Shown in pieces: positions 20,145-64,000 of a DNA stretch of 64,000 nucleotides. The translations under genes and the position numbers were made by a program. Positions within the stretch are counted from its first letter, which is position 1, and each line of letters opens with the position of its first letter. The stretch spans positions 1-64,000 of the forward strand of contig NZ_BONQ01000138.1 in assembly GCF_016862795.1 (NCBI RefSeq). Reading direction: 5' to 3'. The stretch comes from Dactylosporangium siamense. Its GTDB lineage: Bacteria; Actinomycetota; Actinomycetes; Mycobacteriales; Micromonosporaceae. Under the pieces are notes generated by a model. It was given only the letters and a program-made list of their open reading frames with translations. It made no database searches and had not been told where the DNA came from.

Positions 20145-20888
20145 TCAGTGCGAGCGCAGCAGTGAGCCGGCGCCGTACACCTTGTCCTGGATGCCGTTGT
20201 CGCGCAGCGCCATCCACCAGGTGGCGGCGTTGATGGCGATCACCGGCTTGCGCAGCCAGCGCTCGGCCTCGTCGGCGAGGCGGACCATCGACAGGTTGGT
20301 GCCGCACTGCACGATCGCGTCGACGTCGGGGCCGTCGACCTCCAGGATCGCCGCGCGCAGCTCGTCCTCGGTGACGTGGGCGATCGACACGGCCGTGGGG
20401 CAGCGCAGGCCCTTGATGCGCACGACCTCGAAGCCGAGCTCCGAGAAGAAGCGCACCACGTTCTCGTCGCCGATCGGCTGATACGGGGTGACCACGCCGA
20501 TGCGGCGGGCGCCGAACAGGTGCAGGGCGCGTTCGCAGGCCTCGGCGCCGGTGGCGACCTGCAGGCCGGTGATGCCGTTGATCTGGGCGACGAACTCGCG
20601 GTTGCCCTCGACGCCGCCCCAGAAGGTCTCCGCGGACATGCCCATGACCATGAAGTCCGGCTCGCAGGTGAGGACCCGCTCGCAGGCGTGGCCGATCTCG
20701 GCGCGGATCTGCACGAGGAGGTTCTCGAAGCCCTCGTCGCTGGACAGGTCCTGGTTGCGGATGTGGATGCGGGAGAAGTGGGCGGTCACGCCGGGCACGC
20801 CCATGGCATAGAAGTCGGGTTCGACGATCGTGTTGGTGGAGGGGGCGATGACGCCGAACTTGTGGCGCCAGCCCAGGGCGTCGGTCAT
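20145..20888 (-). CDS. Maleate isomerase / arylmalonate-decarboxylase-type enzyme (Asp/Glu racemase superfamily)
   Basis: 247 residues from ATG 20888, overlapping the upstream gene by 4 bases. FGVIAPSTNTIVEPDF and AIVQCGTNLSMV are typical of maleate cis-trans isomerases. Those use two Cys; here the C-terminal one is present (Cys195), but the N-terminal position (MGMSAETFWGG) has Ser85. A single-Cys site resembles arylmalonate decarboxylases. It is the last gene of the RCCR/PAO-like operon. I infer action on a substituted maleate or related diacid made from a pyrrole ring via a maleimide. Both an isomerase and a decarboxylase remain possible. Confidence 0.75.
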   Translation of the reverse strand: MTDALGWRHKFGVIAPSTNTIVEPDFYAMGVPGVTAHFSRIHIRNQDLSSDEGFENLLVQIRAEIGHACERVLTCEPDFMVMGMSAETFWGGVEGNREFVAQINGITGLQVATGAEACERALHLFGARRIGVVTPYQPIGDENVVRFFSELGFEVVRIKGLRCPTAVSIAHVTEDELRAAILEVDGPDVDAIVQCGTNLSMVRLADEAERWLRKPVIAINAATWWMALRDNGIQDKVYGAGSLLRSH

Positions 20889-21514
20889 GCGGGCACCTCT
20901 GAGGGGGAGGGACGGTAGGCGCGGACGGTGAGCCAGACGGCGGTGAGGAACGCCAGCTGCGCGGCCGTGTTCGTGCCCTGCTCGGTCCACTGCAGGCGCA
21001 GCGTCTCGTGGTCGGGGTGGTTGCGCAGCGGCACGAGGGCCGTGACGAGGACGATGCCGAGCGTGTAGAGCGCGATGGCGAGCCGGGCCCGCCGGCGCCC
21101 GGCGTACACAGCGCCGATGACGCTGATCGTGGTCACGCCCGCGGTGGCGAGGATGAACACCGGCTTCATGCTGCCCGCGACCAGGGCGCCGCCCACCACG
21201 GCGGCGTACACCGCGGCGAACGGCCACCAGGGCGCGGTGGGAAGCAGTGCCCAGATGAGCAGGACGGCGCCGGCGGACATGAGGGGGAAGAGTGCGCCCT
21301 CCAGCCACGGCAGGTCCACGTTGAAGCCGGCGACGAGGAGCTTCCACACCGACTTGGCGATGCCGCCGGCGCCGATGAGCACGGCACCGATCCGCCCGGG
21401 GGTGACCCGGCCAGGGGCGCCCAGCGAGGCCAGCAGCCAGAAGCCGTACATCGCCAGCAGTGTCGGCACGAAGTCCTCGACGGCGAGGACGACCGGATAG
21501 TCGTGGCCCGTCAT
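20885..21514 (-). CDS. Six-helix integral membrane protein of unknown function
   Basis: 209 residues from ATG 21514; ATGA overlaps at both ends tie it into the operon. About six hydrophobic helices (VEDFVPTLLAMYGFWLLASL, PGRIGAVLIGAGGIAKSVWK, LMSAGAVLLIWALL, PFAAVYAAVVGGALVAGSM, and so on) with short loops. I do not recognise the family. A conserved-looking FNVDLPWLEGALFPLM loop faces one side. Its place between an SDR and the isomerase suggests a transport or membrane-electron role in the same pathway, but nothing in the sequence proves it. Confidence 0.6.
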   Translation of the reverse strand: MTGHDYPVVLAVEDFVPTLLAMYGFWLLASLGAPGRVTPGRIGAVLIGAGGIAKSVWKLLVAGFNVDLPWLEGALFPLMSAGAVLLIWALLPTAPWWPFAAVYAAVVGGALVAGSMKPVFILATAGVTTISVIGAVYAGRRRARLAIALYTLGIVLVTALVPLRNHPDHETLRLQWTEQGTNTAAQLAFLTAVWLTVRAYRPSPSEVPA

Positions 21515-22281
21515 GCGAAGAGGTCCCGTTTCCGGAAGGCGGCCGTGGCGAAGCGGCCGAACGCCTTGGGGGTGGTGAGCCAGGCGACCCGCCCGCCGTT
21601 CGGCACCCCGGCGAGGACCCGGTCGGCCAGCCACGGCGTGACGGTCTCGACCTTGTCGGCCAGGATGTTGAAGATCTTCTTGGCCTTGGCGAACTCCTCC
21701 GGCGTGTAGTCGCGGGAGAGCAGGTCGGTGACCACCATGCCGGGGGACAGGTGGGCGACGGTGACCGGCGAGTCCTTGCCGAGTTCCTTCGCGAGGGCGT
21801 CGGTGAGGTACGTGACGGCCCGCTTGGTGGCGCCGTATCCGGTGAGCCCGGCCGCCTTCTGGTTGCCGGAGCCGAAGCCCTCCATGTTCCACAGGGCCCC
21901 GTGTCCCTGGGCGCGCATGGCGGCGAGGACGACGGCGCTGGCGTGGGCGACGCCGCGCAGGTTCACGTCGATGACCTCGTCCAGCTCCGCCGGCGGCAGG
22001 TCCCACAGCGGCCGGCGGGCCGTGGACACGCCGGCGTTGTTGATCCAGATGTCGACCGGGCCGTACGCGGCGACCGCCTCGTCCCACAGTGCCCGCACCG
22101 CGTCGCGGTCGGTGACGTCGGCGACCACGCCCCGCAGCTCGGGCCCGCTGCCGGGAAACGCCGCCGCCACCGACTCCAGCGACCGTCCACAGTAGACGAC
22201 CGAGCACTTCCGGGCGAGGAACTCGCGCACCAGGCCGTGGCCGATGCCGCGGGTCCCACCGGTGACCACAACCACGGTCAT
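21511..22281 (-). CDS. Short-chain dehydrogenase/reductase, resembling NYC1/NOL-type enzymes
   Basis: 256 residues. The cofactor motif is VVTGGTRGIGHGLV (residues about 5-18), the structural NNAG motif is present (WINNAGVST), and the catalytic YxxxK is GYGATK. The segment ALWNMEGFGSGNQ recalls plant chlorophyll b reductases (NYC1/NOL), but that resemblance is short and by eye. The start codon lies in the arm of a hairpin (22276-22311) and may be translationally controlled. In the operon it follows two RCCR-like genes and a PAO-like oxygenase, so a carbonyl reduction on a tetrapyrrole-derived compound is plausible. Generic SDR substrates cannot be excluded. Confidence 0.75.
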   Translation of the reverse strand: MTVVVVTGGTRGIGHGLVREFLARKCSVVYCGRSLESVAAAFPGSGPELRGVVADVTDRDAVRALWDEAVAAYGPVDIWINNAGVSTARRPLWDLPPAELDEVIDVNLRGVAHASAVVLAAMRAQGHGALWNMEGFGSGNQKAAGLTGYGATKRAVTYLTDALAKELGKDSPVTVAHLSPGMVVTDLLSRDYTPEEFAKAKKIFNILADKVETVTPWLADRVLAGVPNGGRVAWLTTPKAFGRFATAAFRKRDLFA

Positions 22282-22311
22282 GCGTCCTCACTTCGTTCCG
22301 GGCGCATGACC
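22276..22311. promoter_or_regulatory. Hairpin overlapping the SDR start codon
   Basis: GGTCATGCGTCC (22276-22287) pairs with GGGCGCATGACC (22300-22311) at 11 of 12 positions around a 12-base loop. The minus-strand ATG of the SDR (22279-22281) is inside the stem. This could limit initiation until ribosomes from the upstream gene disrupt it. Confidence 0.5.
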
Positions 22312-22327
22312 CATTGCTGTTCCCCCG

Positions 22328-22361
22328 ATGACCGGCCCGAGACGCTTCGCTGGCCGGTCAT
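22328..22361. repeat. 34-bp ATGA...TCAT palindrome, copy 2
   Basis: ATGACCGGCC... and ...TGGCCGGTCAT form the arms around a GACGCTTCGC centre. The minus-strand stop of the upstream gene (22358-22360) is in one arm, just as the livF stop is in copy 1 at 6892. It sits 16 bases from the hairpin at 22276-22311. Confidence 0.65.
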
Positions 22362-23281
22362 GCGCTGATCCAGGTGAGCGAGCCGTGCAGGATGCCGGCG
22401 AGGGTCGCGCCGTTGTGGATCCGGTACGCCACGGCCAGTTCCGTGCCCGCGCCCATGCCGGGGGTGGCGTCGAGCATGAACTCGCGGCCGGTGATCTTCA
22501 CAACATCGGTGCAGTGGACGGTGGCGTAGTTGGCGCGGCCGAACGCGATCGCGTTGCCCCACGCCTCCGGTCCCTCGTAGAAGGAGCGGAACCCGTCGCG
22601 GCGCCAGTCCACCGTGTACGACCGGTCCAGGGCCCCGGACCAGGTGACCGTCAGGCGGGTGCGCAGCAGGTCGATCGGGGTGAGGGCGATCGTAACGTCG
22701 ACCGGGCCGATCAGCTTCTGGTCGGCGCCCCACAGCTCGCACCGTCCACTGTAGGCACCGGCCTGCTTCGTCGGCAGGATGTAGGGCACCGGGCCGTTGC
22801 GGGTCTCGGCGGCGAGGTGCTCGCGCAACGAGGCATCGGAGACGCCCCGTTTGTAGACGCCGTTGAAGCAGCCGACGACCGCCGGGCCCTGGTAGAGCAT
22901 GGAGGAGTACACCTGGGTGTCGTCGCCGAGCACCTGGTTCCAGGTGTTGAGGTCGACCTGCCAGCCGGGGCCGTAGTAGTGGGCGTCGACGAAGGTGCCG
23001 TAGGGCTGGCCGGTGCCGAAGAAGTCCGGGCCGGTGTAGACGCGATCGGCGTCGGAGTCCACGACGCCGAACGCGAACGGCGCGCCGAGCCGGAAACGCC
23101 CCGCGAGCGGGCCGCCGCCTTCCAGGCCACCGTCCATGTAGTACGTGGTGACGCCGTCGGCGAAGACGGAGGAGCGGCGGATGTCCTCGTAGCCGCGCCA
23201 GGTGCCGTCGGCGTCGAAGAGGCTCGGACGCCCGTGCCACTCACCGGCGATGCGCTGCTGCCATTCCGAGGGGGAGGTCAC
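22358..23281 (-). CDS. Conserved-looking operon protein of unknown function, probably beta-rich
   Basis: 307 residues from GTG 23281 (GTGA overlap with the upstream gene). It is rich in alternating aromatic and Gly/Asp segments: TYYMDGGLEGGGPLAGRFRL, DRVYTGPDFFGTGQPYGTFV, YGPGWQVDLNTWNQVLGDD, AVVGCFNGVYKRG, AYSGRCELWG. The pattern suggests antiparallel beta structure such as a lipocalin- or steroid-binding-like barrel. There is no signal peptide, membrane helix or metal motif. I do not recognise the family. Lying between an RCCR-like gene and the SDR, it may bind or act on the same hydrophobic pigment-derived intermediate (inference). Confidence 0.65.
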   Translation of the reverse strand: MTSPSEWQQRIAGEWHGRPSLFDADGTWRGYEDIRRSSVFADGVTTYYMDGGLEGGGPLAGRFRLGAPFAFGVVDSDADRVYTGPDFFGTGQPYGTFVDAHYYGPGWQVDLNTWNQVLGDDTQVYSSMLYQGPAVVGCFNGVYKRGVSDASLREHLAAETRNGPVPYILPTKQAGAYSGRCELWGADQKLIGPVDVTIALTPIDLLRTRLTVTWSGALDRSYTVDWRRDGFRSFYEGPEAWGNAIAFGRANYATVHCTDVVKITGREFMLDATPGMGAGTELAVAYRIHNGATLAGILHGSLTWISA

Positions 23282-24006
23282 GTGAGCGGCCCGCCGATCA
23301 GCACGTCGCGGATCCCGTCCGAGGCCGGCTCGCCGAGCAGCCGCGACACCTGCGCCCACACCGGGTCGACGGCCGGGCTGAACAGGTTGGCGCGGACGGT
23401 GGCGTCGCGGGCGGCGAGGTCCGTGTCGCCCAGTGACTCCACCACCGGGGAGGGCAGCCCGGCGGAGACCAGGCCGAGCCAATGCGACACGTAGGCGTCG
23501 ACGATCGGGTTCATGCCCTGGAACGCGGCCTCGTCGGCGCGGTGCACCAGCATCCACGGCGACATCAGGGCGTGCTGGCGCGGGCCGATGTGCGCCCGGC
23601 TGAGCCCTTCGCGCTGTGACGCCTCCTCGTACAGGGCGGTCAGCGGGTGATACGCGCTGTCCATGTAGGACAGGTGCGACGACAGCTCGGCCCGGGGGAT
23701 GAGGTCCAGGTGGTAGGCGTAGTAGGCGCCGCCGTAGACGGAGTCCAGGGTGAAGTGCGGGACGCCGGACTTCGGTGCGGTGAACGCGAACACCATGTGG
23801 GAGTCGAGGTTGATCGGCGGCACGGTCAGGCCGACGTAGACCATCCGGGAGATCCCGCCGGAGCCCTCCCAGACCCGCATCGTGCCGACCGGGGCCGGTG
23901 ACATGGGCGAGCGCAGCTCCCGGTAGGGCGAGCCGACCTCGGTCAGCGGCTGCTGGGCGAGGATCGCGTCGAGGGCCCGGGTGGCCAGGGCGAAGGGCAG
24001 CGACAT
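23278..24006 (-). CDS. RCCR-like (ferredoxin-dependent bilin reductase superfamily) protein, paralogue 2
   Basis: 242 residues from ATG 24006. The core (about residues 66-170) has the layout of plant red chlorophyll catabolite reductase: VPHFTLDSVYGG, then YHLDLIPRAELSSHLSYMD, then HALMSPWMLVHRAD. Plant RCCR has PNFVVEL, LILDLPHRKDL and a SP..FVR..FSPTA block in the same order. The acidic residue at the position I align with the plant catalytic Glu is Asp88 here. RCCR reduces red chlorophyll catabolite using ferredoxin; related reductases act on biliverdin. A second, more RCCR-like paralogue is at 26186, and the PAO-like gene is immediately upstream (1-base overlap). The assignment is by eye and needs a profile search. 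Confidence 0.55.
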   Translation of the reverse strand: MSLPFALATRALDAILAQQPLTEVGSPYRELRSPMSPAPVGTMRVWEGSGGISRMVYVGLTVPPINLDSHMVFAFTAPKSGVPHFTLDSVYGGAYYAYHLDLIPRAELSSHLSYMDSAYHPLTALYEEASQREGLSRAHIGPRQHALMSPWMLVHRADEAAFQGMNPIVDAYVSHWLGLVSAGLPSPVVESLGDTDLAARDATVRANLFSPAVDPVWAQVSRLLGEPASDGIRDVLIGGPLT

Positions 24007-25214
24007 CACAGTTGCTCCTCTGAGTCTTCGGCGTCGCGGCGGGCCTGACCGAGACGTTCGGCCTCGGCGACCGTGGGGTGTTCGCCCTTCGCCTTGTGCA
24101 CCCAGGCGCGGGCGAGCTCCGGGTTCTCCCGGCGGGCCGGTGAGGCGATGACCGTCGCCTCGCGGCGCGGGACGTCGCCCATGATGCGGTCCTCGTCGCC
24201 CAGCAGCCAGCCCTGCTCGGCGAGCTCCTGCCGGCGGCGCCGGTAGTGCACGGCGATCAGGTCGCTCTTCACGTGCAGCTCGGCGCCGAGGTCGAACGGC
24301 AGCAGCTCGGGGCGGACCTTGTCGACCACCGGGGCGTCCTGCCCGAAGATCTTCTCGACCCGCTGGATGGCGTTCTTGTCGGCCCAGTTGCCGGTGAAGA
24401 AGTCCCGCAGCGCCACCCACTTGACCAGGGTGGTGGTCTCGTCGATGGGGATGTTGGTGTCGTAGATGATGAGGTTGCCCAGCGGCAGCCGGACGTGCAG
24501 CTTGATCATGTTCGGCAGCATCCAGCCGGCCGTCGTCGCGACCGGCGGGCGTTCCTTCAGGTTATTGCCGCGCCGCCCCACCATCGCCCAGATGCCCTTC
24601 GGCGCGGGCGGGTGCAGGCGCACCGTCGCGAACGCCGACCACTCGTCGGGGATCTCGAGCTCGTACTCCTCGACGTCGGGCCGCTCCGGGTTGCCGAACG
24701 ATCCGGAGTGCACGAACGGCGTGTGCGCGATGTCGCAGCCGTTCTCGAGGATCCGTTCGTAGTTGGACTTCCACAGGTACTCGCCGGTGACGGCCTTGAA
24801 CCTGCCGCCGTTGGTCACCAGGTCGTCGAACTCGGGCCAGACCGGGATCGGTGGGCGCTCCTCAGCCGGGAGGTCGCCGAGGAACACCCAGACGAAGCCG
24901 TAGCGCTCCTCGACCGGATACGAGTCGACCCGGGCCTTCTTCGGGATGCCGCGCCCGGGCTGGTTCGCCGGGATCTTCACGCAGGCGCCGTCCGGCTCGT
25001 ACTCCCAGCCGTGATACGGGCACACGATCGAGTCGTTCTTGACCCAGCCGCCGGACAGCGCGGCGCCGCGGTGCACGCACAGGTCCGACAGCGCGACCGG
25101 GCGGCCCTTCGGCGTGCGGTACAGCACCAGCTCCTGCCCGAGGCACGTGGCCCGCAGGGGTTTGGTGGTGACGCGGTCGGCGAACTCGACCGCGTACCAG
25201 AAGTTCTTCAGCAT
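24006..25214 (-). CDS. Rieske non-haem iron oxygenase, pheophorbide a oxygenase-like
   Basis: 402 residues. The Rieske 2Fe-2S ligands are Cys46, His48, Cys65 and His68 (LCVHRG and CPYHGWEY). The mononuclear iron site is NGCDIAHTPFVH (about residues 159-170). The stretch after the Rieske motif (ACVKIPANQPGRGIPKKARV, then YGFVWVFLGD) resembles the plant PAO/TIC55/vanillate-demethylase branch more than classical ring-hydroxylating dioxygenases. PAO opens the chlorophyll macrocycle oxidatively, and its product is the RCCR substrate. RCCR-like genes follow immediately and lie two genes upstream. A ferredoxin and reductase must come from elsewhere; none is in the window. The substrate is inferred; O-demethylase activity is the main alternative. 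Confidence 0.75.
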   Translation of the reverse strand: MLKNFWYAVEFADRVTTKPLRATCLGQELVLYRTPKGRPVALSDLCVHRGAALSGGWVKNDSIVCPYHGWEYEPDGACVKIPANQPGRGIPKKARVDSYPVEERYGFVWVFLGDLPAEERPPIPVWPEFDDLVTNGGRFKAVTGEYLWKSNYERILENGCDIAHTPFVHSGSFGNPERPDVEEYELEIPDEWSAFATVRLHPPAPKGIWAMVGRRGNNLKERPPVATTAGWMLPNMIKLHVRLPLGNLIIYDTNIPIDETTTLVKWVALRDFFTGNWADKNAIQRVEKIFGQDAPVVDKVRPELLPFDLGAELHVKSDLIAVHYRRRRQELAEQGWLLGDEDRIMGDVPRREATVIASPARRENPELARAWVHKAKGEHPTVAEAERLGQARRDAEDSEEQL

Positions 25215-25223
25215 GCGAGGCTC

Positions 25224-26189
25224 CTAGCGGCGCCGGACGGACACCAGGTCCTGGGGGAACGTGTCGAGGGCGGCCGGGTCGCCGCCGCGCAGATGGGTGC
25301 GCAGGAACGCGGACAGCAGCCCGGCGATGGCGCCGCGGGCCGTCGCGTCGCCCACGGTGGACGGCCGGTCGAGGAACGACCGGGCCGCGGTGGGGTCGGC
25401 GGGCTCGACGACGCTGAAGTGGTTGGCACCGGCCAGGGTCGCCAGGACGTGCTCGCCGTCGCGGTCCTTCAGCGCCTCGTCGAACGTGCGGTTGACCGGG
25501 TCGTGCGACCCGTCCGCCGAGGCGCCGTAGCGGTCGGCGGACGCGGCGATGACGCCGTCCTCGGTGCCCGCGAGGAGCAGCACCGGCGACTCGACGAGCG
25601 CGTCGGCGATGTGGCCCGCGGGCCAGCCGAGCATGGTGGAGACCATGGTGTGCGCGCCGTAGGTCGCGACCGCCCGCACCTGCGGGAAGAAGCGCCCCGA
25701 CTGCAGCGCGACGGTGCCGCCGGCGGAGTGCCCGAACAGCGCCACCCGGTCGAGGTCCAGGGCGCCGCGCAGCGGCCCCTCAGCGGCGTTGAGCGAGGCC
25801 AGTTCGTGCAACAGCGGCGCGATCGCCTGGCAGGTCGGCCCGTCGCCGTAGGTGTCCGGCCGGGCCAGGGCGAGGTCCACGCCCGGCGTGATGCCGACCT
25901 GACCCGCGAACAGCGGCCCGACCCAGTCGTAGGTGACCGTGACGAAACCCTGCCGGGCGAGTTCGACGGCGAGCCAGCGGTACGCGTCCTGGCCCACGTT
26001 GATGCCGCTGAGCACCAGCACCACGGGGTGCGGCCCGCCGGCCGGGTCGGCCTGGAAGACGCCGCTGAGCCGTTCGGTGTCCGAGCCGGTCACCAGCGCC
26101 GGGTAGTGCACCTTGAGATGGGCGGTGGCGTAGGGCTCAGGCGCGCCGGGGATCGTCACGGCGGACCACAGGGATCGGACGGTCGTCAT
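25224..26189 (-). CDS. Alpha/beta hydrolase, chlorophyllase-like
   Basis: 321 residues from ATG 26189 (ATGA overlap upstream). The nucleophile elbow is GHSAGG (Ser155), the acid lies near AGTEDGVI, and the catalytic His is in GANHFSVVE. Layout resembles chlorophyllases: HPVVLVLSGINVGQDAYRWL, then ARQGFVTVTYDW, and a C-terminal GLLSAFLRTHLRGGD after the His. Plant chlorophyllase has GHSRGG, so the Arg is Ala here. Chlorophyllases and related pheophytinases remove the phytol ester. In this operon an esterase acting before the PAO-like oxygenase would make sense. A dienelactone-hydrolase-like or general esterase function is the alternative. Confidence 0.65.
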   Translation of the reverse strand: MTTVRSLWSAVTIPGAPEPYATAHLKVHYPALVTGSDTERLSGVFQADPAGGPHPVVLVLSGINVGQDAYRWLAVELARQGFVTVTYDWVGPLFAGQVGITPGVDLALARPDTYGDGPTCQAIAPLLHELASLNAAEGPLRGALDLDRVALFGHSAGGTVALQSGRFFPQVRAVATYGAHTMVSTMLGWPAGHIADALVESPVLLLAGTEDGVIAASADRYGASADGSHDPVNRTFDEALKDRDGEHVLATLAGANHFSVVEPADPTAARSFLDRPSTVGDATARGAIAGLLSAFLRTHLRGGDPAALDTFPQDLVSVRRR

Positions 26190-27001
26190 GGGCGGGGCAG
26201 TTCGCGGTCGCCGCCCCACAGCGCCCGCACCAGGCGCTGGGTGGTCTCCTCGCCGAAGTAGCGCACGCCCATGACGTTGGCCGGGTCGCGGTCGGCGATG
26301 TTGCGCCGGGTCGCCAGGTCCCGCTCGCGCAGCGCGTCACGCTCGCCGGCGGGCACCTCGGGGGCCTCGTCGACCCACGTGAGCCACTGGTCGACCTGGG
26401 CGTGCAGCCGGTCGCTGACCACCTGGATGTTGCGGGCCGTGCGCTCGAACGAGTACACGTAGGCGTTCGGCGACAGCGAGGCGCGGATGAACCCGGCCCG
26501 GCTGGTGAACCAGGCGAACTCCGGGTCGGCCCGGTGCTCCAGCCACGCCTCGTTGGGCGGCGCGTAGTAGCGGTCGAAGTAGTCGCCGTCCACGACGATG
26601 TCGGTGCGCGGGATGTAGTCGGTGTAGAACCAGCCGCCCGGCCAGCACAGCAGCGCGATGCCGAGGTGCGGCACCTTGACCTGGGGGCCGAGCCAGCAGG
26701 TGAGGTGCAGGTTGACGAAGCTGCGCGACGGGTCGCCCAGCCACGAGTGCACCATCCAGTCGACCTCCGGCCCGCTGTAGGCGGCCACCCGGCCGCCCGG
26801 TCCCTCCGGATACGTCCCGTACTGCTCCAGCGGCTCCGTCGACGGATCGCGGGTGGTGGCGAACCTCGCGTCGATCTTGGCCTTGAGATCCGCCAGGAGC
26901 TGCTGGAACTGTGCGAAGGTGTCGTTGACGTCGATGACGGGCGAGGCGTCGAGCATCTCCTCGACGTGCTGGACGGTTTCCTCCACGCGCTCACTCTCCA
27001 A
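26186..27001 (-). CDS. RCCR-like (red chlorophyll catabolite reductase-like) protein, paralogue 1
   Basis: 271 residues from TTG 27001; GTG 26986, with a GGAGAG 8 bases upstream, is an alternative. Residues about 110-205 parallel plant RCCR in order and spacing: VPHLGIALLCWPGGWFY, then DYIPRTDIVVDGDYFDRYY (plant LDLPHRKDLVLNPDYLKEYY), then RAGFIRASLSPNAYVYS (plant PSLFVRSAFSPTASMLK), then DRLHAQVDQWLTWVDEA. The position of the plant catalytic Glu is Ala here, so the chemistry or register may differ. It is the first gene of an eight-gene operon whose promoter carries the 26-base regulon site. I infer reduction of an open-chain tetrapyrrole. Plant sequences are quoted from memory. Confidence 0.58.
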   Translation of the reverse strand: MESERVEETVQHVEEMLDASPVIDVNDTFAQFQQLLADLKAKIDARFATTRDPSTEPLEQYGTYPEGPGGRVAAYSGPEVDWMVHSWLGDPSRSFVNLHLTCWLGPQVKVPHLGIALLCWPGGWFYTDYIPRTDIVVDGDYFDRYYAPPNEAWLEHRADPEFAWFTSRAGFIRASLSPNAYVYSFERTARNIQVVSDRLHAQVDQWLTWVDEAPEVPAGERDALRERDLATRRNIADRDPANVMGVRYFGEETTQRLVRALWGGDRELPRP

Positions 27002-27016: not shown

Positions 27017-27042
27017 GGAAACAGTGTTTCGCTACGGGTAAC
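27017..27042 (+). promoter_or_regulatory. 26-base regulon operator, site A
   Basis: GGAAAC (27017-27022) is followed exactly 20 bases on by GGTAAC (27037-27042). Between them is AGTGTTTCGCT, so GAAACA-G-TGTTTC also forms a perfect inverted repeat. It lies just upstream of the RCCR-like operon. See also sites at 28655, 39059, 40668 and 61066. Confidence 0.75.
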
Positions 27043-27047
27043 GGATG

Positions 27048-28643
27048 TCAACGGGTCAGCGCGTCCACGAGCTGCCAGGGTCGCCCGTCCAGCAGGTCGG
27101 TGCCGCGCGAGACGAGCTTGTTGCGGCTCTGCGCGGGGGCGAGGACCGCCGTGGCGACCGCGGTGCCGGCCGGGACCTCGGTCACCAGCGGGTGGCTGAT
27201 CCGGCCGGTGAACGGGCCTTCCCAGGCGGTCCACAGCGTGAAGTCGGGGCTCAGCGCGTAGAAGGCGGCCGGCGTGCCGAGGGGTGTGGCGGCGACGATG
27301 TTGAGCCGGTTCTCCGCGGCGCGCTCGGGCAGGCCGAGCGCCAGCTCCCAGTCCTCGGCCGGGCTGAACGGCACGGCCACCACGTCGGCGCCGGCGATCG
27401 CGGCGAGGCGGAACACCTCCGGGTAGATGGCGTCGTCGCCGACCACCACCGCCAGGCGGCCCCACGGCAGGTCGAACGTCTCCAGGCCGTCGCCGTGCCG
27501 GTCGACCCGGCCGTCGAGCCGGGCGACCGGGTGCAGCTGCAGCTGCCGGCCGATGACGCCGGCGGCGGACACCACGACGCCGGTGTGCGCGCCGTCCTCG
27601 ACGACGCTGGTCACCGCGACCGCCGCCGTGTCCCGCAGCAGCTCCTGCAGGGCGGCCACGACCGAGGGGTCCTGCAGCTCGGGCAGCACCAGGAGCCGGG
27701 CGCCGGCGGACAGCGCCTCGGGCACGCCGCCGTGCCCCCGCACCACCGCCGCGTGCAGCGACTCGGCGGCCTGTGGCGGGCGGGGGTCCTGGGGCGGCCG
27801 GCCGATCGGGGCGTAGACGGACCCGCGCCGCGCGGTGAAGCGGTCCGTGCCGTCGGGGCGGCGCTTGTCCCTGGCGAGGGCGGGGTCGATGTCGGCGACG
27901 ACGACCGCCTCGCCGGTCCGCGGCCCCTTCGCCACGACCGTGCCGTCGGGCGCCACGATCTGGCTCTCCCCGGCCCCGTGCAGCCACTCCGGCGGCACCT
28001 TGAGCCCGGCGCTGATGACGTCGAGCTTGTCGGCGGGCAGCAGCGGGCCGACCTTGTTGGCCGCCACGACCCAGACCCTGTTCTCCGCGGCCCGCACCGG
28101 GATGTGCAGGCTCGCCTCGTCGGTGGCGAACGAGTTGAGGCTGTTGAGCAGGACCTCCGCCCCGCGCAGCGCGAGACCGCGGGCCACCTCCGGAGCGACG
28201 CCCTCCATGCAGGCATACATGCCGACGGTACCGAAGCCGGTGGCCATCACCGGGCCGTTCTCGCTGCCGCGGTGCAGGTGGTCGTTCTCGCTGCCCATCA
28301 GCGTCTGCTTGTCGCTCTGCCCCAGCAGTGCGCCGTCGGGGCCGAACAGCAGGTTGGTGCCGGTGGTCCGGCCGTCGTCCTGGGCGAGCGTGACGTTGAT
28401 CTTGACGAAGCAGCCGTGCTGCGCCGCACGCGCGGCGATCGCGGTCAGGAACGGGTCGCCGAGGCGGCAGGCCATGCGGCGGGCGTGGTCGCGGTCGTCG
28501 TACCACGACAGGTGGTTGCAGAACTCCGGCAGGACCACCAGATCCGCGCGCTCGGCGGCGGCCTGGTCGATCATCCGCAGACAGCTCGCGAGGTTCGCGG
28601 ACACGTCCTGACCGACGGCGAACTGGACAGCGGCAACCCTCAC
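27048..28643 (-). CDS. Tandem nitrilase-superfamily amidase with degenerate second domain
   Basis: 531 residues from GTG 28643, with AGGAGG about 5 bases upstream. The first domain (1 to about 275) has the full triad Glu40 (VVLPEFCN), Lys112 (QSDKQTLMG) and Cys145 (YACMEG). The second (about 290-531) keeps the fold and a Glu (LVLPELQDP), but the Cys position reads VVVGDDAIYPE, so it is probably inactive. Nitrilase-family enzymes hydrolyse amides, carbamoyl groups or nitriles. With the cyclic-amide hydrolase at 59625 this could cleave the half-amide left after opening a maleimide or similar ring. It is a single gene divergent from a Dabb protein, with regulon site B between them. Confidence 0.8.
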   Translation of the reverse strand: MRVAAVQFAVGQDVSANLASCLRMIDQAAAERADLVVLPEFCNHLSWYDDRDHARRMACRLGDPFLTAIAARAAQHGCFVKINVTLAQDDGRTTGTNLLFGPDGALLGQSDKQTLMGSENDHLHRGSENGPVMATGFGTVGMYACMEGVAPEVARGLALRGAEVLLNSLNSFATDEASLHIPVRAAENRVWVVAANKVGPLLPADKLDVISAGLKVPPEWLHGAGESQIVAPDGTVVAKGPRTGEAVVVADIDPALARDKRRPDGTDRFTARRGSVYAPIGRPPQDPRPPQAAESLHAAVVRGHGGVPEALSAGARLLVLPELQDPSVVAALQELLRDTAAVAVTSVVEDGAHTGVVVSAAGVIGRQLQLHPVARLDGRVDRHGDGLETFDLPWGRLAVVVGDDAIYPEVFRLAAIAGADVVAVPFSPAEDWELALGLPERAAENRLNIVAATPLGTPAAFYALSPDFTLWTAWEGPFTGRISHPLVTEVPAGTAVATAVLAPAQSRNKLVSRGTDLLDGRPWQLVDALTR

Positions 28644-28654: not shown

Positions 28655-28680
28655 GGTTCCTCTAGCGGAACAGTGTTTCC
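28655..28680 (-). promoter_or_regulatory. 26-base regulon operator, site B
   Basis: Read on the minus strand: GGAAACACTGTTCCGCT, then AGAGGAACC; the two GGAA-type words are 20 bases apart. It matches site D at 21 of 26 positions. It lies between the divergent nitrilase (28643) and Dabb (28721) genes. Confidence 0.75.
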
Positions 28681-28720: not shown

Positions 28721-29002
28721 ATGCTCGTGCTGACCCATGTCGTCATCATGAAGTTCGCGGATCCGGGCGACGCGCCGAAGGCCAAGGAGCTCCTGGAGGG
28801 CCTGGTCGGCGTGGTGCCGCAGGTCCTGTCCATGACCCTCGGGCTGGACACCGTGCGCAGCGAGGTGTCCGGCGACCTGTGCATGATCACCACCCACGAC
28901 GACGTGGACGGGCTGCGCGGGTATCAGGCGCACGAGGCGCACCAGGAGGTCGGCGCCTGGCTGCGGCCGCGCCTGGCCGCGCGCACGGTGGTGGACTTCT
29001 GA
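28721..29002 (+). CDS. Dabb (stress-responsive A/B barrel) domain protein
   Basis: 93 residues; ATG 28721 has an AGAGAGG site just upstream, and a longer reading frame from 28673 would run through the operator. LTHVVIMKFADPGDAPKAKELLEGL and YQAHEAHQEVGAWLRPRL are typical of the dimeric ferredoxin-like Dabb fold, shared with haem-degrading monooxygenases and polyketide cyclases. Family members range from stress proteins to enzymes. Regulon site B upstream links it to the catabolic genes. The substrate is unknown. Confidence 0.8.
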   Translation: MLVLTHVVIMKFADPGDAPKAKELLEGLVGVVPQVLSMTLGLDTVRSEVSGDLCMITTHDDVDGLRGYQAHEAHQEVGAWLRPRLAARTVVDF

Positions 29003-48054: not shown

Positions 48055-48064
48055 GGGATCCACA

Positions 48065-59610: not shown

Positions 59611-59636
59611 GTCAGCGGGGCAGGTCAGCGGGGCAG
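59611..59636. repeat. 13-bp tandem duplication at the 3' end of the cyclic-amide hydrolase gene
   Basis: GTCAGCGGGGCAG occurs twice in tandem (59611-59623 and 59624-59636). On the minus strand it duplicates the last codons and the TGA stop of the gene ending at 59625, so the second copy lies just past the stop. Confidence 0.7.
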
Positions 59637-61049
59637 GAAGGTGCCGCTGGGTTCGCCGACGACGGCGCCGTCGCGGAAGACGACCCGGCCGCGCAGGACC
59701 GTCGCCACCGGCCAGCCGCGGACCTTGCGGCCGGCGAACGGGCAGTGGTCCTGGCCGGACAGCAGCAGGTCGGTGGTGACCTCCTGCTCGAGGTCCGGGT
59801 CGACGACGGTGAGGTCGGCGTCCTGCCCGACGAGCAGCGATCCCTTGCGCGGCCACAGTCCGTAGGCGCGGGCCGGGTTGGCCGAGACGAGCTCCGCGAC
59901 CCGGTGCGGGGCGAGGCCGCGCTTGTGCATGCCCTCGCTGAGCAGCACCGGGTAGAGCAGGCCGGTGCCGCCGAAGCCGGGCAGGGCCGGCCACAGCTCG
60001 TCGCCCTTGTGCTCCTCCAGGCAGCAGGCGTGGTCGGAGGCGACCCAGTCGACCTTGCCGGACAGCACCCCGGCCCAGAGCGCCTCGCTGTCGGCGGCGC
60101 TGCGGATCGGCGGGTTCACCTTGGCGCCCAGGCCGGACAGCTCGTCGTAGTTGAGGCACAGGTGGTGCAGCGTCACCTCGGTGCGCAGGTCGAGGTCGGG
60201 GCGGGCCAGGCGGGCCTCGGTCGCGGCGGCGAGGGCCTCGCCGCTGGACAGGTGCAGCAGGTTGATCGGGCAGGCGGTCGCCGCGGCGAGGGTGGTGGCC
60301 TCACCGATCGCGACCCGTTCGGTGAGCGGTGGCCGGGCGTCGGAATACGCCTTCAGCGTCTGCGGGTCACCGGCGGCGCGGACCCGTTCGATGAACAGCC
60401 GCATCAGCTCGGCCTGCTCGCAGTGCAGCGACAGGGAGATCCGGCGGCCGGTGTCGCGGGCGGCGGCGGAGACGGCCTCCATGATCTGGTACAGGTGGCC
60501 CAGGTCGTACTCGTCGCTCATCGTGAACGCCTTCGCGTCGCGCGAGTCGGCGGACAGGTTGAAGCCCTTGTAGAACATGTAGTACTTGAACGAGCTGATC
60601 CCGTGCCGGTCCACGAGCGCCGGGACCTCGCCGACCTGACGGGTGTCCATGGGCGCGAGGTGGAAGCCGAAGTCGGTCCACGAGCGGCCGGACACGGCGT
60701 CGAGCACCTCGGGCAGGATGTCCTCGTACGCACCGGTCTTGTTCAGGTAGTGCTGCCCGGTCCGGAAGTACGACAGCACGGTGGTGGCGCCGCCGACGAG
60801 GGAGGACCGGGTCTCCTCGGTCGCGTCGACCTCCAGGGGCCGGTAGATGCCCAGGTGGTAGTGCGCGTCCACGCCGCCGGGGAAGACGAGTCTGCCGGCG
60901 GCGTCGAGGACCTCGTCGGCCTCACCCGGAGGAAGGTCCTCCCCGATCGCAGCGATCCGCCCGTCCCGCGTGGCCAGGTCCGCCCGGACCTCACCCACGT
61001 ACGGCAGGACCAGGGTCCCGTTCTTCACCAGCAAGTCGTACCGCGACAC
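59625..61049 (-). CDS. Dihydropyrimidinase/hydantoinase-type cyclic amide hydrolase
   Basis: 474 residues from GTG 61049, with AAGGGG 5 bases upstream; a longer frame from TTG 61076 would run into the regulon site. The amidohydrolase metal ligands are present: GGVDAHYHLG (His63, His65), the carboxylated Lys in SSFKYYMFYKG, His in LSLHCEQAE and INLLHLSSGE, and Asp in VASDHACC. The family opens hydantoins, dihydropyrimidines, allantoin and cyclic imides such as maleimide. Site E upstream ties it to the regulon. A maleimide or succinimide-type substrate from pyrrole oxidation is my inference. Confidence 0.83.
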   Translation of the reverse strand: MSRYDLLVKNGTLVLPYVGEVRADLATRDGRIAAIGEDLPPGEADEVLDAAGRLVFPGGVDAHYHLGIYRPLEVDATEETRSSLVGGATTVLSYFRTGQHYLNKTGAYEDILPEVLDAVSGRSWTDFGFHLAPMDTRQVGEVPALVDRHGISSFKYYMFYKGFNLSADSRDAKAFTMSDEYDLGHLYQIMEAVSAAARDTGRRISLSLHCEQAELMRLFIERVRAAGDPQTLKAYSDARPPLTERVAIGEATTLAAATACPINLLHLSSGEALAAATEARLARPDLDLRTEVTLHHLCLNYDELSGLGAKVNPPIRSAADSEALWAGVLSGKVDWVASDHACCLEEHKGDELWPALPGFGGTGLLYPVLLSEGMHKRGLAPHRVAELVSANPARAYGLWPRKGSLLVGQDADLTVVDPDLEQEVTTDLLLSGQDHCPFAGRKVRGWPVATVLRGRVVFRDGAVVGEPSGTFLPR

Positions 61050-61065
61050 ATGAGCCCCTTTCAGC

Positions 61066-61091
61066 GTTTCCCTCAATGTAACGGGGTTTCC
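61066..61091 (-). promoter_or_regulatory. 26-base regulon operator, site E
   Basis: On the minus strand GGAAAC (61091-61086) recurs at 61071-61066, exactly 20 bases apart. It agrees with site D at 19 of 26 positions. It lies between the divergent cyclic-amide hydrolase and CoA-transferase genes. Confidence 0.72.
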
Positions 61092-61110
61092 ATTTTGACG
61101 ATAGTGCCGT

Positions 61111-61116
61111 TAGGCT
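61111..61116 (+). promoter_or_regulatory. -10 element of a leaderless promoter
   Basis: TAGGCT ends 6 bases before the GTG at 61123, the same spacing as TAGACT before the IclR gene at 39158. The expected -35 (near 61088-61093) overlaps operator site E. Confidence 0.55.
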
Positions 61117-61122
61117 CTGCTG

Positions 61123-62319
61123 GTGGAACTGCAGCCCGCCTTAGCAGGGATCACCGTCGTGGACGTGTCCACCCTGTTCGCCGGCCCCCTGGCCGCCACC
61201 ATCCTGGGGGACTTCGGCGCCGACGTGATCAAGATCGAGCATCCCGCCAAAGGTGACCCGTCCCGCGGCCACGGCCCCGCCAAGAACGGCGTGCCGCTGT
61301 GGTGGACGCTGCTCGGGCGGAACAAGCGCTGCGTCACCCTCAACCTGTCCCGTCCCGCCGGCGCCGAGCTGCTCAAACGCCTCCTGGCCGGCGCCGACGT
61401 CCTGATCGAGAACTTCCGGCCCGGCACCCTGGAGCGCTGGGGCCTCGGGCCCGATGTGCTGCTGGAGCTCAACCCGCGCCTGGTCGTCGCGAGGGTCACC
61501 GCGTTCGGCCAGTTCGGCCCGTACGCGTCGCGGCCCGGCTTCGGCACCCTCGCCGAGGCGATGAGCGGGTTCGCGGCCATCACCGGACAGCCCGACGGGC
61601 CACCGACGCTGCCACCGTTCGGGCTCGCCGACGGCATCGCCGCCATCGCCACCGCGCAGGCCGTCACCACGGCCCTGCTCGCGCGGCACGCGACAGGTTC
61701 CGGGCAGGTGATCGATCTGGCCATCATCGAACCCATCCTGACCCTTCTGGGCATGCAGCCGATGGTGTACGACCAGCTCGGGACCGTTCAGGGCAGAACC
61801 GGGAACCGGAGCGTCAACAACGCGCCCCGCAACACGTACCGCAGCCGCGACGGGAAGTGGCTCGCCGTGTCGACGTCCGCCCAGGCCGTGGCGGAGCGGG
61901 TGCTGCGCCTCGTCGGGCATCCGGAGGTGCTCGACGAGCCGTGGTTCGCCGCCGGCGCCACCCGCGCGCAGCACGCCGACCTGCTCGACACCTATGTCGG
62001 GGACTGGATCGCGGCCCGCGACGCCGCCGACGTCATCGTCGCGTTCGAGGCCGCGGAGGCCGCCATCGCCCCGATCCACGACATCGCCGACGTGTTCACC
62101 GACCCGCAGTACGCCGCGCTCGGCACCCTGCGCGCCGTCGAGGACCCGGCCCTGGGCCCGGTCCGCATGCAGAACGTGCTGTACCGGATGTCCGCCACCC
62201 CGGGCGACATCAAGTGGACCGGACCGGCCCTCGGCGCCCACAACGACGAGATCTACCGCGACCGGCTCGGCCTCACCACCGACGACCTCGACCAGCTGCA
62301 CGCCGACGGGGTGCTGTGA
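61123..62319 (+). CDS. Type III CoA-transferase (CaiB/BaiF family), second paralogue
   Basis: 398 residues from GTG 61123, probably leaderless. LAGITVVDVSTLFAGPLAAT and LGDFGADVIKIEHPAKGDPS are family-typical, followed by VLIENFRPGTLERWGLGPD. The catalytic Asp position reads PPFGLADGIAAIATAQAV. It transfers CoA to a free acid. It precedes a cyclase-family gene (1-base overlap) and a MmgE/PrpD gene, echoing the CaiB-MmgE pair at 42241-44774. Confidence 0.87.
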   Translation: MELQPALAGITVVDVSTLFAGPLAATILGDFGADVIKIEHPAKGDPSRGHGPAKNGVPLWWTLLGRNKRCVTLNLSRPAGAELLKRLLAGADVLIENFRPGTLERWGLGPDVLLELNPRLVVARVTAFGQFGPYASRPGFGTLAEAMSGFAAITGQPDGPPTLPPFGLADGIAAIATAQAVTTALLARHATGSGQVIDLAIIEPILTLLGMQPMVYDQLGTVQGRTGNRSVNNAPRNTYRSRDGKWLAVSTSAQAVAERVLRLVGHPEVLDEPWFAAGATRAQHADLLDTYVGDWIAARDAADVIVAFEAAEAAIAPIHDIADVFTDPQYAALGTLRAVEDPALGPVRMQNVLYRMSATPGDIKWTGPALGAHNDEIYRDRLGLTTDDLDQLHADGVL

Positions 62320-63101
62320 TGGACTTCCTCGCCGGTTCGCGGGTGCTGGACCTGGCGCAGCCGATGCGCCGGGGCATGCCGCAGTCGCCGAACCACCCGC
62401 CGTTCCGGATGGCCCTGGAGCGCCGCCACGGCGACCTGGTCCGCCCCGACGGCGGTTCGGCCGCGAACGAGCTCATCGTCACCGGCGGCCACGTCGGCAC
62501 CCACGTCGACGCCCTCGCGCACGTCTCGCAGGACGGCGTCCTGCACGGCGGGGTCGACGCCTCCTCCGTCCAGTCCCACCTCGGGTTCAGCTCCCACGGC
62601 ATCGAGTCGTTCGAGGTCTACGTCGGCCGTGCCGCCGTGCTCGACGTCGCCCGCGTCCACGGGGTGCCGGTGCTGCCCGCCGGCTACGAGATCACGGCCG
62701 AGGACCTCGACGCCTGCGACGTCGCCGTGCACCCCGGCGACGCCGTGCTGATCGGCACCGGCTGGTCCCGCCGCTGGGACGAGCACGACGCCTTCATCGG
62801 CCAGCGCGACGGCACCCCCGGCCCCGGCGTCGCCGCCGGTGCCTGGCTCGCCGGCCGCGGGGTGCGGGTCGTCGGGGGCGAGACGATCGCCTTCGAACAC
62901 ATCCCGGCCGGGCGCGGGCATGCCGTGCTACCCGTACACCGGATGCTCCTGGTCGAACGGGGCATCCACATCGTGGAGACGATGCGGCTGCACCCGCTGC
63001 TGGACACCGGCGCCCGCGAGTGCCTCCTGGTGCTCAACCCGCTGCCGATTGTCGGCGCGACCGGCGCTCCCGTCCGCCCGCTCGCGATCCTCCCGTCATG
63101 A
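62319..63101 (+). CDS. Cyclase-family (kynurenine-formamidase-like) amidohydrolase
   Basis: 260 residues from ATG 62319 (TGATG overlap). The metal motif HxGTHxDxxxH reads GGHVGTHVDALAH, and a further His/Glu set lies in EHIPAGRGHAVLPVH. The family includes kynurenine formamidase, isatin hydrolase and other enzymes that open lactams or N-formyl amides. In this locus it could remove a formyl group or open a lactam ring of a bilin-derived pyrrole (inference). The length is typical. Confidence 0.82.
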   Translation: MDFLAGSRVLDLAQPMRRGMPQSPNHPPFRMALERRHGDLVRPDGGSAANELIVTGGHVGTHVDALAHVSQDGVLHGGVDASSVQSHLGFSSHGIESFEVYVGRAAVLDVARVHGVPVLPAGYEITAEDLDACDVAVHPGDAVLIGTGWSRRWDEHDAFIGQRDGTPGPGVAAGAWLAGRGVRVVGGETIAFEHIPAGRGHAVLPVHRMLLVERGIHIVETMRLHPLLDTGARECLLVLNPLPIVGATGAPVRPLAILPS

Positions 63102-64000
63102 CGGCCGTCGAACAGCTCGCCGCCTTCGCCGTCGGCTGCCGTGCTTCGGTGCCCGCCGCGGTCCGCGCCGACGTGCCCGCCAGGGTCCTCGACATCCTCG
63201 GGCTCGCCCTCGCCGCGCACGGGGACCCGGACGCCGACGCCGCCCCCGCGGTGCTGCGGTCGGTACGCCGCTGGGGCGGCACCCCCGAGGCGACCGTCAT
63301 CGGCACCGGCGACCGGCTTCCCGCCCCGGCCGCCGCACTCGTCAACGGCACCCTGGCGCACTCCCTCGACTTCGACGACACCCACCTGCCGTCGGTGCTG
63401 CACCCGTCCGCGTCCGTCGTCCCGGCCGCCCTCGCCACCGCCGAGGCCACCGGCGCCTCCGGCGCGGCGCTCCTCGCGGCCGTCGCCGCCGGGGTCGAGC
63501 TCACCAACCGGCTCGGCATGGCCGCCTACGACCCGGCGATCGCCAACTCCATCTTCTTCGAACGCGGCCTGCACGCGACCTCGATCTGCGGCGCCATCGG
63601 CTCCGCCGCCGCCTCCGCCCTGCTGCTCGGCCTCGACGCACCCGGCGTCGCCTCCGCGATGGGGGTCGCGGCGAGCATGGGCGCCGGCCTGATCGAGGCG
63701 AACCGCACCGGCGGCACCGTCAAGAAGGTCCACTGCGGCTGGGCCGCCCACGCCGGGGTCTCCGCCGCCTACCTCGCCGCCGACGGGCTCACCGGCCCGC
63801 CGACCGTGCTCGAAGGCCGGTTCGGCTTCTTCACCGCGTACACCGGCGGCCGCTGCGACGACGACGCGCTCCTGGGCGGCCTCGGCACCCGCTGGGAGCT
63901 GCTGCGCACCGCGTTCAAACCCTACCCGTCCAACCACTTCACCCACCCCGGCATCGACTGCGCCCTCGCCCTGCGCGCCGCCGGCCTCGACCCGTCCACC
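63098..64000 (+). CDS. MmgE/PrpD family protein, paralogue 2 (runs past the window end)
   Basis: About 301 residues visible from ATG 63098 (ATGA overlap), with no stop before the window edge. The motif HSLDFDDTHLPS matches HALDFDDTH of paralogue 1 at 43449, and RGLHATSICGAIGSAAASAL, KKVHCGWAAHAGV and FKPYPSNHFTHPGIDCA follow the family. It is the third gene of a unit with a CaiB enzyme and a cyclase-family enzyme under site E. Confidence 0.85.
   Translation, partial: MTAVEQLAAFAVGCRASVPAAVRADVPARVLDILGLALAAHGDPDADAAPAVLRSVRRWGGTPEATVIGTGDRLPAPAAALVNGTLAHSLDFDDTHLPSVLHPSASVVPAALATAEATGASGAALLAAVAAGVELTNRLGMAAYDPAIANSIFFERGLHATSICGAIGSAAASALLLGLDAPGVASAMGVAASMGAGLIEANRTGGTVKKVHCGWAAHAGVSAAYLAADGLTGPPTVLEGRFGFFTAYTGGRCDDDALLGGLGTRWELLRTAFKPYPSNHFTHPGIDCALALRAAGLDPST

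Follow-up and report, generated by a model that had tools for sequence, protein, structure and literature searches.

Plants degrade chlorophyll along a route that, as outlined in PMC8219035, uses PAO, RCCR, TIC55 and MES16. RCCR, the bilin reductases and CPO are summarised as enzymes of one fold that act on tetrapyrroles (PMC13193486), and bacterial members have been described: RCCR homologues are reported from Nostoc and Anabaena, with an adjacent pair of genes in Nostoc punctiforme (PMC2716323), as are RCCR-like sequences from Schekmanbacteria and bilin reductases in heterotrophs (PMC10151467). The literature we searched, a scope that excluded most subscription journals and leaves novelty unproven, held no bacterial gene set dismantling a tetrapyrrole. 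Here we describe a catabolic gene set built around two RCCR-fold reductases, g25 and g22, in Dactylosporangium siamense. The window, i.e. the whole stretch analysed, comprises bases 1-64000 of a 74,946-base contig (NZ_BONQ01000138.1) in a genome of 12.7 Mb and has a G+C content of 73%; its genes were called by codon-position G+C and numbered g1-g59 (Table 1). The system is real, conserved and probably co-regulated, and its sequences make it rather probable that we are looking at a catabolic regulon letting soil actinomycetes use chlorophyll-derived tetrapyrroles. The initial annotation had suggested chlorophyll or linear-tetrapyrrole breakdown, a reading that the sequence data support and to which gene order, co-occurrence, a shared palindrome and palindrome-preceded exported esterases add weight.

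The product of g25 matches the Pfam profile PF06405 (RCC_reductase) with 49.2 bits (cut-off 24.9, E 5.4e-13) over nearly the full profile, and among PDB sequences the single protein already finds Arabidopsis RCCR at 3.5e-8 (phmmer). With a profile of 36 g25-family sequences, Arabidopsis RCCR comes out at 1.4e-14 and the plastid bilin reductase 6qwq (PebB) behind it at 3.2e-7. It is the sole PF06405 match in its own genome, 14 control genomes gave no PF06405 match, and g25 sought among plasmids gave none either. H94 and the C-terminal D234 are kept in 80/80 aligned sequences, with an alignment gap near the Asp. The acidic pair of Arabidopsis RCCR we take to be Glu154 and Asp291, in numbering as well as in role, and the matching of g25 and g22 residues to numbered PcyA and RCCR residues is likewise presumed.

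The relationship of g22 is more remote. Alone it yields no Pfam match at E 0.01 and no NCBIfam match, and the window protein scores 12.6 bits against the RCC_reductase profile, below the cut-off. Among its relatives, 31/34 weakly match RCC_reductase (best E 0.0045) and 3/34 Fe_bilin_red (best 5.5e-4), while hhalign connects it to the g25 family at 96.6% over 210 columns, both profiles being shallow with a Neff below 2. Its AlphaFold model (pLDDT 90.7) retrieves Arabidopsis RCCR 3aga as top Foldseek hit (2.1e-11, TM 0.77/0.70), followed by PcyA, HY2 and PebB; matches to designed proteins were treated as noise. H71, D89 and D215 are invariant in 82/82 aligned sequences. By its predicted structure g22 is a protein of the RCCR/bilin-reductase fold. 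The presence of two RCCR-type proteins is thereby confirmed, by profile for g25 (PF06405, 5.4e-13) and by hhalign and predicted structure for g22. RCCR similarity, named beforehand together with PAO similarity as a point on which the proposal could be refuted, survives both kinds of comparison, whereas PAO family membership does not hold. The two proteins are not copies of each other and probably catalyse different reductions.

Conservation was assessed in several genome samples, with counts uncorrected for relatedness. A PF06405 search of 300 same-family genomes found 38 positives including the own genome; neighbourhoods were fetched for 35 of them, leaving out the own genome (G000), G100 and G135. 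A named set consists of the best 80 of 123 confirmed places, hence the better-matching part, and partly covers the same organisms; these loci were selected by g25, seen up to 10 kb on each side and assigned from genus names to Micromonosporaceae, Streptosporangiaceae, Thermomonosporaceae, Nocardiaceae, Streptomycetaceae and Nocardioidaceae. All 80 were found through g25, though the gene caller did not list it in three. The run g25-g24-g23-g22-g21-g20 recurs in exact order in 34/35 family loci and in 72/80 named loci across these six actinomycete families. Co-occurrence, which had been proposed as a check, points the same way: in 78 family genomes g22 is present in 37 of the 38 RCCR-positive and in none of the 40 RCCR-negative ones, and in a phylum sample of 396 genomes RCCR, g22 and g21 are each found in the same three, the own genome being one of these. 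The single miss and the single exception to the gene order are the same genome, G225 (Actinoplanes couchii, loci L057/L114), which has an isolated RCCR gene with 64% identity to g25 and, by genome-wide profile search, no g22; this gene is possibly a remnant or put to a different use.

In the distant genomes G550 and G592 the genes for RCCR, the Rieske oxygenase, g22 and g21 adjoin in that order, with homologues of g26, g18, g31 and the CoA-transferase as well as HMG-lyase- and isochorismatase-like genes nearby (partly judged by eye). G550 additionally holds homologues of g24 and g34; just upstream it has the window's CoA-transferase/cyclase/MmgE trio together with a HyuB/HyuA pair. This hydantoinase/oxoprolinase pair lies between the MmgE/PrpD and RCCR genes (L160, 4615-8348) and is a candidate ATP-driven lactam opener; a distant pair occurs near the Micromonospora cluster.

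Beyond the core, the modules g1-g8, g18-g27, g30-g37, g38-g48, g56-g59 and contig positions 68251-73382 recur together, though reshuffled, in five wide neighbourhoods of 73-120 kb (Actinoplanes, Micromonospora, Catellatospora and two Dactylosporangium, genera inferred), and linking 59625-64000 to 20145-39973 was therefore right. Within the stretches covered, the modules are not complete everywhere: G081 lacks g38-g48 and, of the right-hand modules, everything except g58; in G124 g38-g48 is partial and the cupin missing; G115 has the cupin and ligase without HMG lyase, second CoA-transferase and isochorismatase. The single regulon initially proposed is borne out by conserved synteny and the shared palindrome, its extent is not: in the neighbourhood comparison 29055-31659 and 50135-59503 fall outside the conserved set, which instead reaches to 936-11952 and to about contig position 73382. 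We thus discarded the idea that all of 20145-64000 forms one pathway, with 68251-73382 joining on the right.

The palindrome GGAAAC-N3-GTTTCC, or degenerate forms of it, lies in short intergenic stretches before several modules and resembles an operator shared among them. Within the window alone the signal is weak, with four sites of at most two mismatches against 0.73 expected, 3/100 shuffles doing as well, and one of the four (1869-1883) lying inside a gene. In the 80 named loci (the 35 family loci were left out for overlap) we count 194 intergenic sites in 186 kb versus 11 in 1.42 Mb of coding sequence, with an intergenic site in 77/80 loci, while 59 other half-site permutations give a mean of 6 and a maximum of 24 intergenic sites. 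G592 has three sites, each with two mismatches. The own genome contains ten places with at most one mismatch, compared with three for a backwards control. Three of the ten fall on the window contig (27017, 70574, 71522; 0.06 expected, Poisson P 3e-5), two on contig C127, one on C18 and four elsewhere; the latter were taken as chance, those on C49 and C81 being inside open reading frames and those on C62 and C185 between them. The C18 site adjoins a gene of the major facilitator superfamily (MFS), homologues of which (58-67% identity) are found in seven named loci. We infer that the IclR protein g36 is the candidate regulator binding the palindrome.

The two C127 sites directly precede two alpha/beta hydrolase genes (first type, C127:5488-6453; second type, C127:6595-7497), whose products have export signals as predicted by eye, one Sec-like and one Tat-like (MAQRFSRRGVLL). 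For the second, Chlorophyllase PF07224 is the best Pfam match with 31.4 bits (cut-off 26), next to matches to a PETase model (28.2, cut-off 28) and to PAF-AH (27.1, cut-off 20). Relatives occur in 42/80 named loci (first type 33, second 12, both 3), and the first type is present in 28/38 RCCR-positive and 0/40 RCCR-negative family genomes, in 4 genera of 42. A palindrome lies within 350 bp upstream of 27/35 linked first-type copies versus 35/261 other unlabelled genes. Of all single arguments for preferring chlorophyll, an esterified pigment, over free bilins, the strongest is that following the palindrome brings one to exported esterases of the chlorophyllase type.

On this basis, the exported esterases of the chlorophyllase/PETase superfamily, encoded on the other contig behind the same palindrome, would remove the phytyl ester, and the ABC importer with its surface proteins and/or the MFS carrier would take up the product. 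Inside the cell, the Rieske oxygenase g23 would open the macrocycle or oxidise a bilin, whereupon the RCCR homologue and the second RCCR-fold reductase, both presumably ferredoxin-dependent, would reduce the coloured, phototoxic bilin held by the double lipocalin g21. The intracellular hydrolase g24 may remove remaining esters, and flavin monooxygenases together with aldehyde dehydrogenases may cleave the bridges, leaving pyrroles or maleimides. Fragments could then be fed into central metabolism by the cyclic-amide hydrolase, nitrilase- and isochorismatase-type amidases, MmgE/PrpD, the lyase and CoA enzymes, with the IclR regulator presumably switching the regulon through GGAAAC-N3-GTTTCC. 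Opened imides give alkylated maleates, compounds similar to those that PrpD- and PrpB-type enzymes act on. From such considerations we infer the downstream maleimide/maleate chemistry, both its reactions and their order; haematinic acid and maleimides are reported as chlorophyll oxidation products (PMC7318184). The bolder formulation, a first bacterial regulon for complete aerobic chlorophyll mineralisation, spread through soil actinomycetes and running from dephytylation outside the cell and import to central metabolites, with two RCCR-fold reductases, a double lipocalin serving them and a ring-opening Rieske enzyme of an origin separate from plant PAO, appears to us possible but falls just short of an even chance.

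Several observations weigh against chlorophyll breakdown. G550 shows no palindrome with at most two mismatches in 60 kb. g25 carries Ala (79/80) at the position of the Glu of plant RCCR and the Asp of PebB. The PaO domain is found in 0/25 g23 relatives and is absent from the six families found up to E 10, and Staygreen (Mg-dechelatase) is present in 0/80 genomes in a search run without a positive control. Among the esterases, the first has Chlorophyllase as its best match at 21.1 bits, under the cut-off of 26; the second is nearer to PETases (2.5e-6) than to chlorophyllase 8fjd (4.7e-4) among PDB sequences; 34 related proteins distribute over Hydrolase_4 (21), Chlorophyllase (13) and PETase (10); the first type is absent from 10/38 RCCR-positive family genomes, and only 3/12 linked second-type copies have a palindrome upstream. 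As far as the substrate can be deduced from these genes, chlorophyll is best supported and free bilins come second. The corresponding proposal, a regulon for environmental haem-derived or phycobilin bilins (biliverdin, bilirubin, urobilins) in which the bilin is already linear when the Rieske enzyme oxidises it, draws on the missing plant-type PAO and on g22, whose His/Asp/Asp set, which we assume to be PcyA-like, is kept and whose model is close to PcyA, HY2 and PebB after RCCR. The haem oxygenase family PF01126 occurs in 30/40 RCCR-positive genomes, which fits bilins, yet not significantly more often than in RCCR-negative ones (23/40), and it was not found in 10/40 RCCR-positive genomes, the own one included. 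Biliverdin made that way by the cell itself is therefore not a needed substrate, and we judge an own haem oxygenase unlikely as its source, PF01126 being the only such family searched. As g25 has RCCR rather than the bilin reductases as its nearer relative and free-acid bilins would hardly call for linked exported esterases, we regard environmental bilins as an unlikely substrate.

Another reading would be an ordinary aromatic or ester catabolic cluster whose RCCR-fold proteins have been co-opted for a substrate other than a tetrapyrrole, for instance a plant polyester, a steroid-like compound or an alkaloid. Most of the downstream enzymes do belong to types frequent in catabolism, with a flavin monooxygenase and reductase similar to DszC and HsaAB; the exported esterases look like PETases and cutinases, and g25 is without one residue expected from RCCR. 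However, two RCCR-fold proteins and a double lipocalin stay together even in the distant G550 and G592, and the amide-hydrolysing enzymes point to a nitrogen-containing substrate, which makes such a recruitment distinctly improbable in our view. Heterotrophs reportedly carry pre-PcyA gene clusters. A core serving to produce or alter a bilin chromophore for the cell, in biosynthesis or light sensing rather than as food, could be imagined along these lines, as such clusters are described to hold active bilin reductases and bilin-binding proteins (PMC10151467). With PF01126 missing from the own genome and the core kept with amidase, dehydrogenases and monooxygenases across families, all under a common palindrome, we give this explanation very little credence. 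A catabolic regulon for chlorophyll-derived tetrapyrroles thus remains our preferred interpretation.

Table 1. Features of the window (positions in the window; minus and plus denote strands; named and family refer to the 80 named and 35 family loci)
Feature	Position	Strand	Assignment	Basis	Occurrence
g1-g8	936..11952	+	ABC importer, branched-chain-amino-acid type; candidate uptake module	Pfam	
importer ATPase	6167-6895	+	part of importer		
importer permease plus ATPase	6978-9980	+	part of importer		
surface-type proteins	936-4838, 10019-10609	+	WxL-like and neocarzinostatin-like proteins		
g18	20145..20888	-	arylmalonate decarboxylase/EutA superfamily protein	PF17645 3.7e-19	78/80 named
g19	20885..21514	-	hydrophobic, probably membrane protein	judged by eye	50/80 named
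g20	21511..22281	-	generic short-chain dehydrogenase	PF00106 7.6e-40	79/80 named
g21	22358..23281	-	double calycin (lipocalin-like) barrel, candidate bilin/tetrapyrrole binder	AlphaFold, Foldseek	
g22	23278..24009	-	second RCCR/bilin-reductase-fold protein	hhalign, AlphaFold, Foldseek, conserved residues	
g23	24006..25214	-	Rieske oxygenase (Rieske + VanA_C); candidate ring-opening or bilin oxygenase	Pfam, PDB sequences	
g24	25224..26189	-	intracellular alpha/beta hydrolase, Ser-Asp-His set	Pfam	
g25	26186..26986	-	RCCR homologue; open reading frame list offers longer starts than 26986	Pfam, phmmer, family profile	
GGAAACAGTGTTTCG	27017..27031		palindrome before g25 operon		
g26	27048..28643	-	nitrilase-superfamily amidase, two CN_hydrolase-like stretches	PF00795 1.2e-44	78/80 named
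CGGAACAGTGTTTCC	28666..28680		weaker palindrome between g26 and g27	2 mismatches	
g27	28721..29002	+	small Dabb alpha/beta-barrel protein	PF07876 9.8e-15	40/80 named, 28/35 family
g30	31661..33109	-	aldehyde dehydrogenase	Pfam	72/80 named
g31	33106..34230	-	FAD_binding_3 monooxygenase	Pfam	67/80 named
g32	34227..35051	-	PEP-mutase/methylisocitrate-lyase superfamily, non-core		19/80 named, 28/35 family
g33	35075..36406	-	aldehyde dehydrogenase		66/80 named
g34	36495..37784	-	acyl-CoA-dehydrogenase-fold protein, possibly two-component flavin monooxygenase		55/80 named
g35	37800..39032	-	flavin reductase fused to HMGL-like part		
g36	39158..39973	+	IclR-family regulator, divergent from g35		
g38-g48	40737..50070	+	CoA module		
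g56	59625..61049	-	hydantoinase/allantoinase-type cyclic amide hydrolase		4/5 wide neighbourhoods
TGTAACGGGGTTTCC	61077..61091		weaker palindrome between g56 and g57	2 mismatches	
g57-g59	61123..64000	+	CoA-transferase III, putative cyclase, MmgE/PrpD; runs on to contig position 64480		

Turning to the remaining core proteins, the Rieske oxygenase g23 keeps its cluster and iron ligands in 81/81 aligned sequences, and its closest solved relatives among PDB sequences are SxtDIOX, SxtT, NdmA, NdmB and DdmC. The earlier label of a PAO-like Rieske oxygenase holds for the oxygenase only: in the profile comparison all 25 relatives combine Rieske with VanA_C and none has PaO, which places the enzyme in the VanA/DdmC/SxtT group and rules out membership in the PAO family. 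By its position among these genes, g23 may still stand in a place equivalent to PAO and do PAO's job without belonging to its family. The AlphaFold model of g21 (pLDDT 86.8), a protein without match in Pfam, NCBIfam or PDB sequences, finds BFA1 at 4.4e-10 and a Nostoc DUF3598 protein at 8.4e-9 in Foldseek; more weakly, one of its barrels resembles the bilin lyase CpeS (4.0e-3) and nitrophorin.

For g24, S155, D211 and H257 are kept in 79/79 aligned sequences. It had been called chlorophyllase-like, which we could not substantiate at family level, as it reaches PF07224 with E 0.0021 and 17.3 bits, under the cut-off of 26; a chlorophyllase-family esterase is located behind the same palindrome on the other contig instead. 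The NYC1-like character assigned to g20 was not supported either, as the 25 NCBIfam matches listed of 208 were all generic short-chain dehydrogenase models under their cut-offs, with no NYC1 model searched; searches did not find g20 in G550 or G592. g19 has no Pfam or NCBIfam match. Maleate isomerase has two catalytic cysteines. In g18-type proteins the motif at the first Cys site reads MGMS in 112/112 and the second Cys is present in 108/112, while in the alignment this conserved Cys is found in 79/81, G550 and G592 having Val instead. One Cys position is thus kept and the other is not, and the maleate-isomerase assignment was dropped.

The importer module g1-g8 is found near the core in 5/5 wide neighbourhoods, some without g8, and in many Nocardia loci genes of the g7 type are likewise situated next to the core. 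Pfam scores for the WxL and neocarzinostatin families are over the curated cut-off for 2677-3621 and 10019-10609 and under it for 936-2585 and 3618-4838; 4825-6180 and 10606-11952 have no Pfam match. Neocarzinostatin binds a bulky chromophore. The neocarzinostatin- and WxL-like proteins (10019-10609, 2677-4838) adjoin the importer, and a role as pigment carriers is an idea at this stage. Most of the other enzyme types proposed initially were recovered, namely flavin monooxygenases, two aldehyde dehydrogenases, a CN-hydrolase, a hydantoinase-type amidohydrolase, CoA enzymes and a putative cyclase. Of the dimethylmalate-lyase type attributed to g32, the PEP-mutase/methylisocitrate-lyase superfamily holds and the equivalog-level match does not (prpB, 209 bits under a cut-off of 354), and no dimethylmalate-lyase model is among the NCBIfam matches listed; matches of g18, g32 and g56 are at superfamily level only. 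g34 matches acyl-CoA dehydrogenase and DszC/HsaA models alike, all under cut-offs.

The CoA module g38-g48 comprises MaoC types, a luciferase-like monooxygenase, CoA-transferase III, MmgE/PrpD and a RidA-like protein, further a thiolase with OB partner, an acyl-CoA dehydrogenase and HpcH/HpaI; it is complete or nearly so in 3/5 wide neighbourhoods, partial in G124 and absent in G081. The g57-g59 trio is kept in 4/5 and is also the one found just upstream of RCCR in G550, and contig positions 68251-73382 encode a DUF4437 cupin, an acyl-CoA ligase, HMG lyase, a CoA-transferase and an isochorismatase. On another contig of the own genome (C81:68198-70474, L006) we noticed a DUF4437 cupin with 70% identity to that of G550, a g18 paralogue (58%) and, judged by eye, a TetR-like regulator. 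In many Nocardia loci the RCCR cluster has similar neighbours, namely g18-paralogue, TetR-like and DUF4437-like genes, and the C81 set may be a further module. The right-hand catabolic module is split by a 942-residue STAND-type NTPase/TPR protein (contig positions 64492-67320, L059:492-3320) that is not conserved with it in the wide neighbourhoods. Inside the locus and outside the conserved modules, 52704-56642 encodes a 1312-residue TPR and CHAT-protease protein (Pfam CHAT 1.9e-41) with a lower third-position G+C of 0.84, which could be a signalling or defence gene. One MmyB-like regulator is matched in two parts by neighbouring open reading frames, its ligand-binding part by 57935-58327 and its HTH part by 58393-58875; the two are possibly one interrupted gene.

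Chlorophyll is stated to be made and degraded at a scale of 10^12 kg per year (PMC7318184). If our interpretation is true, the locus would provide genes behind a natural process of vast scale, of which little is known on the bacterial side, and thereby candidate genes for a missing soil process, in a cultivable genetic system whose RCCR-type enzymes could be compared with those of plants. Metagenomes could then show who recycles chlorophyll nitrogen, and under the bolder formulation litter-degrading bacteria would hold functional counterparts of plant RCCR. Should the substrate be another bilin, this would still be an aerobic tetrapyrrole catabolic system, none of which is described in the literature searched.

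As in the plant PAO/phyllobilin pathway outlined in PMC8219035, a Rieske oxygenase, an RCCR-type reductase, alpha/beta hydrolases and a short-chain dehydrogenase come together in the actinomycete locus, which in addition has enzymes that would dismantle the pyrroles, a part that the plant route as described there does not have. Unlike the plant pathway, the locus features a Rieske enzyme outside the PAO family, two RCCR-fold proteins, a lipocalin partner, exported esterases and IclR-type control. The homologues of Nostoc and Anabaena are, like g25, bacterial members of the RCCR family (PMC2716323); they belong to phototrophs for which that account describes no catabolic cluster, whereas here a heterotroph combines a catabolic locus with a strongly diverged second RCCR-fold protein. 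With PcyA, PebA/B, HY2 and the pre-PcyA clusters the system shares the fold, some active-site residues and the presence in non-photosynthetic bacteria, as far as these are characterised in PMC10151467 and PMC13193486. It differs from the bilin reductases in that g25 scores with RCCR and not with Fe_bilin_red, the own genome is without PF01126 and the neighbouring genes are catabolic. BilR, the bilirubin reductase of gut bacteria, is presumably an unrelated, anaerobic flavoenzyme. It likewise stands for bacterial reduction of a linear tetrapyrrole, and the different pathway setting given in its description sets it apart from the locus (PMC10769871). The VanA-type Rieske oxygenase, the pair of acyl-CoA-dehydrogenase-fold protein and flavin reductase, the CoA module and the IclR-type regulator are reminiscent of aerobic aromatic and steroid clusters of the HsaAB, DszC and VanA types. 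To our knowledge, such clusters contain no RCCR-fold pair, double lipocalin or amide hydrolases.

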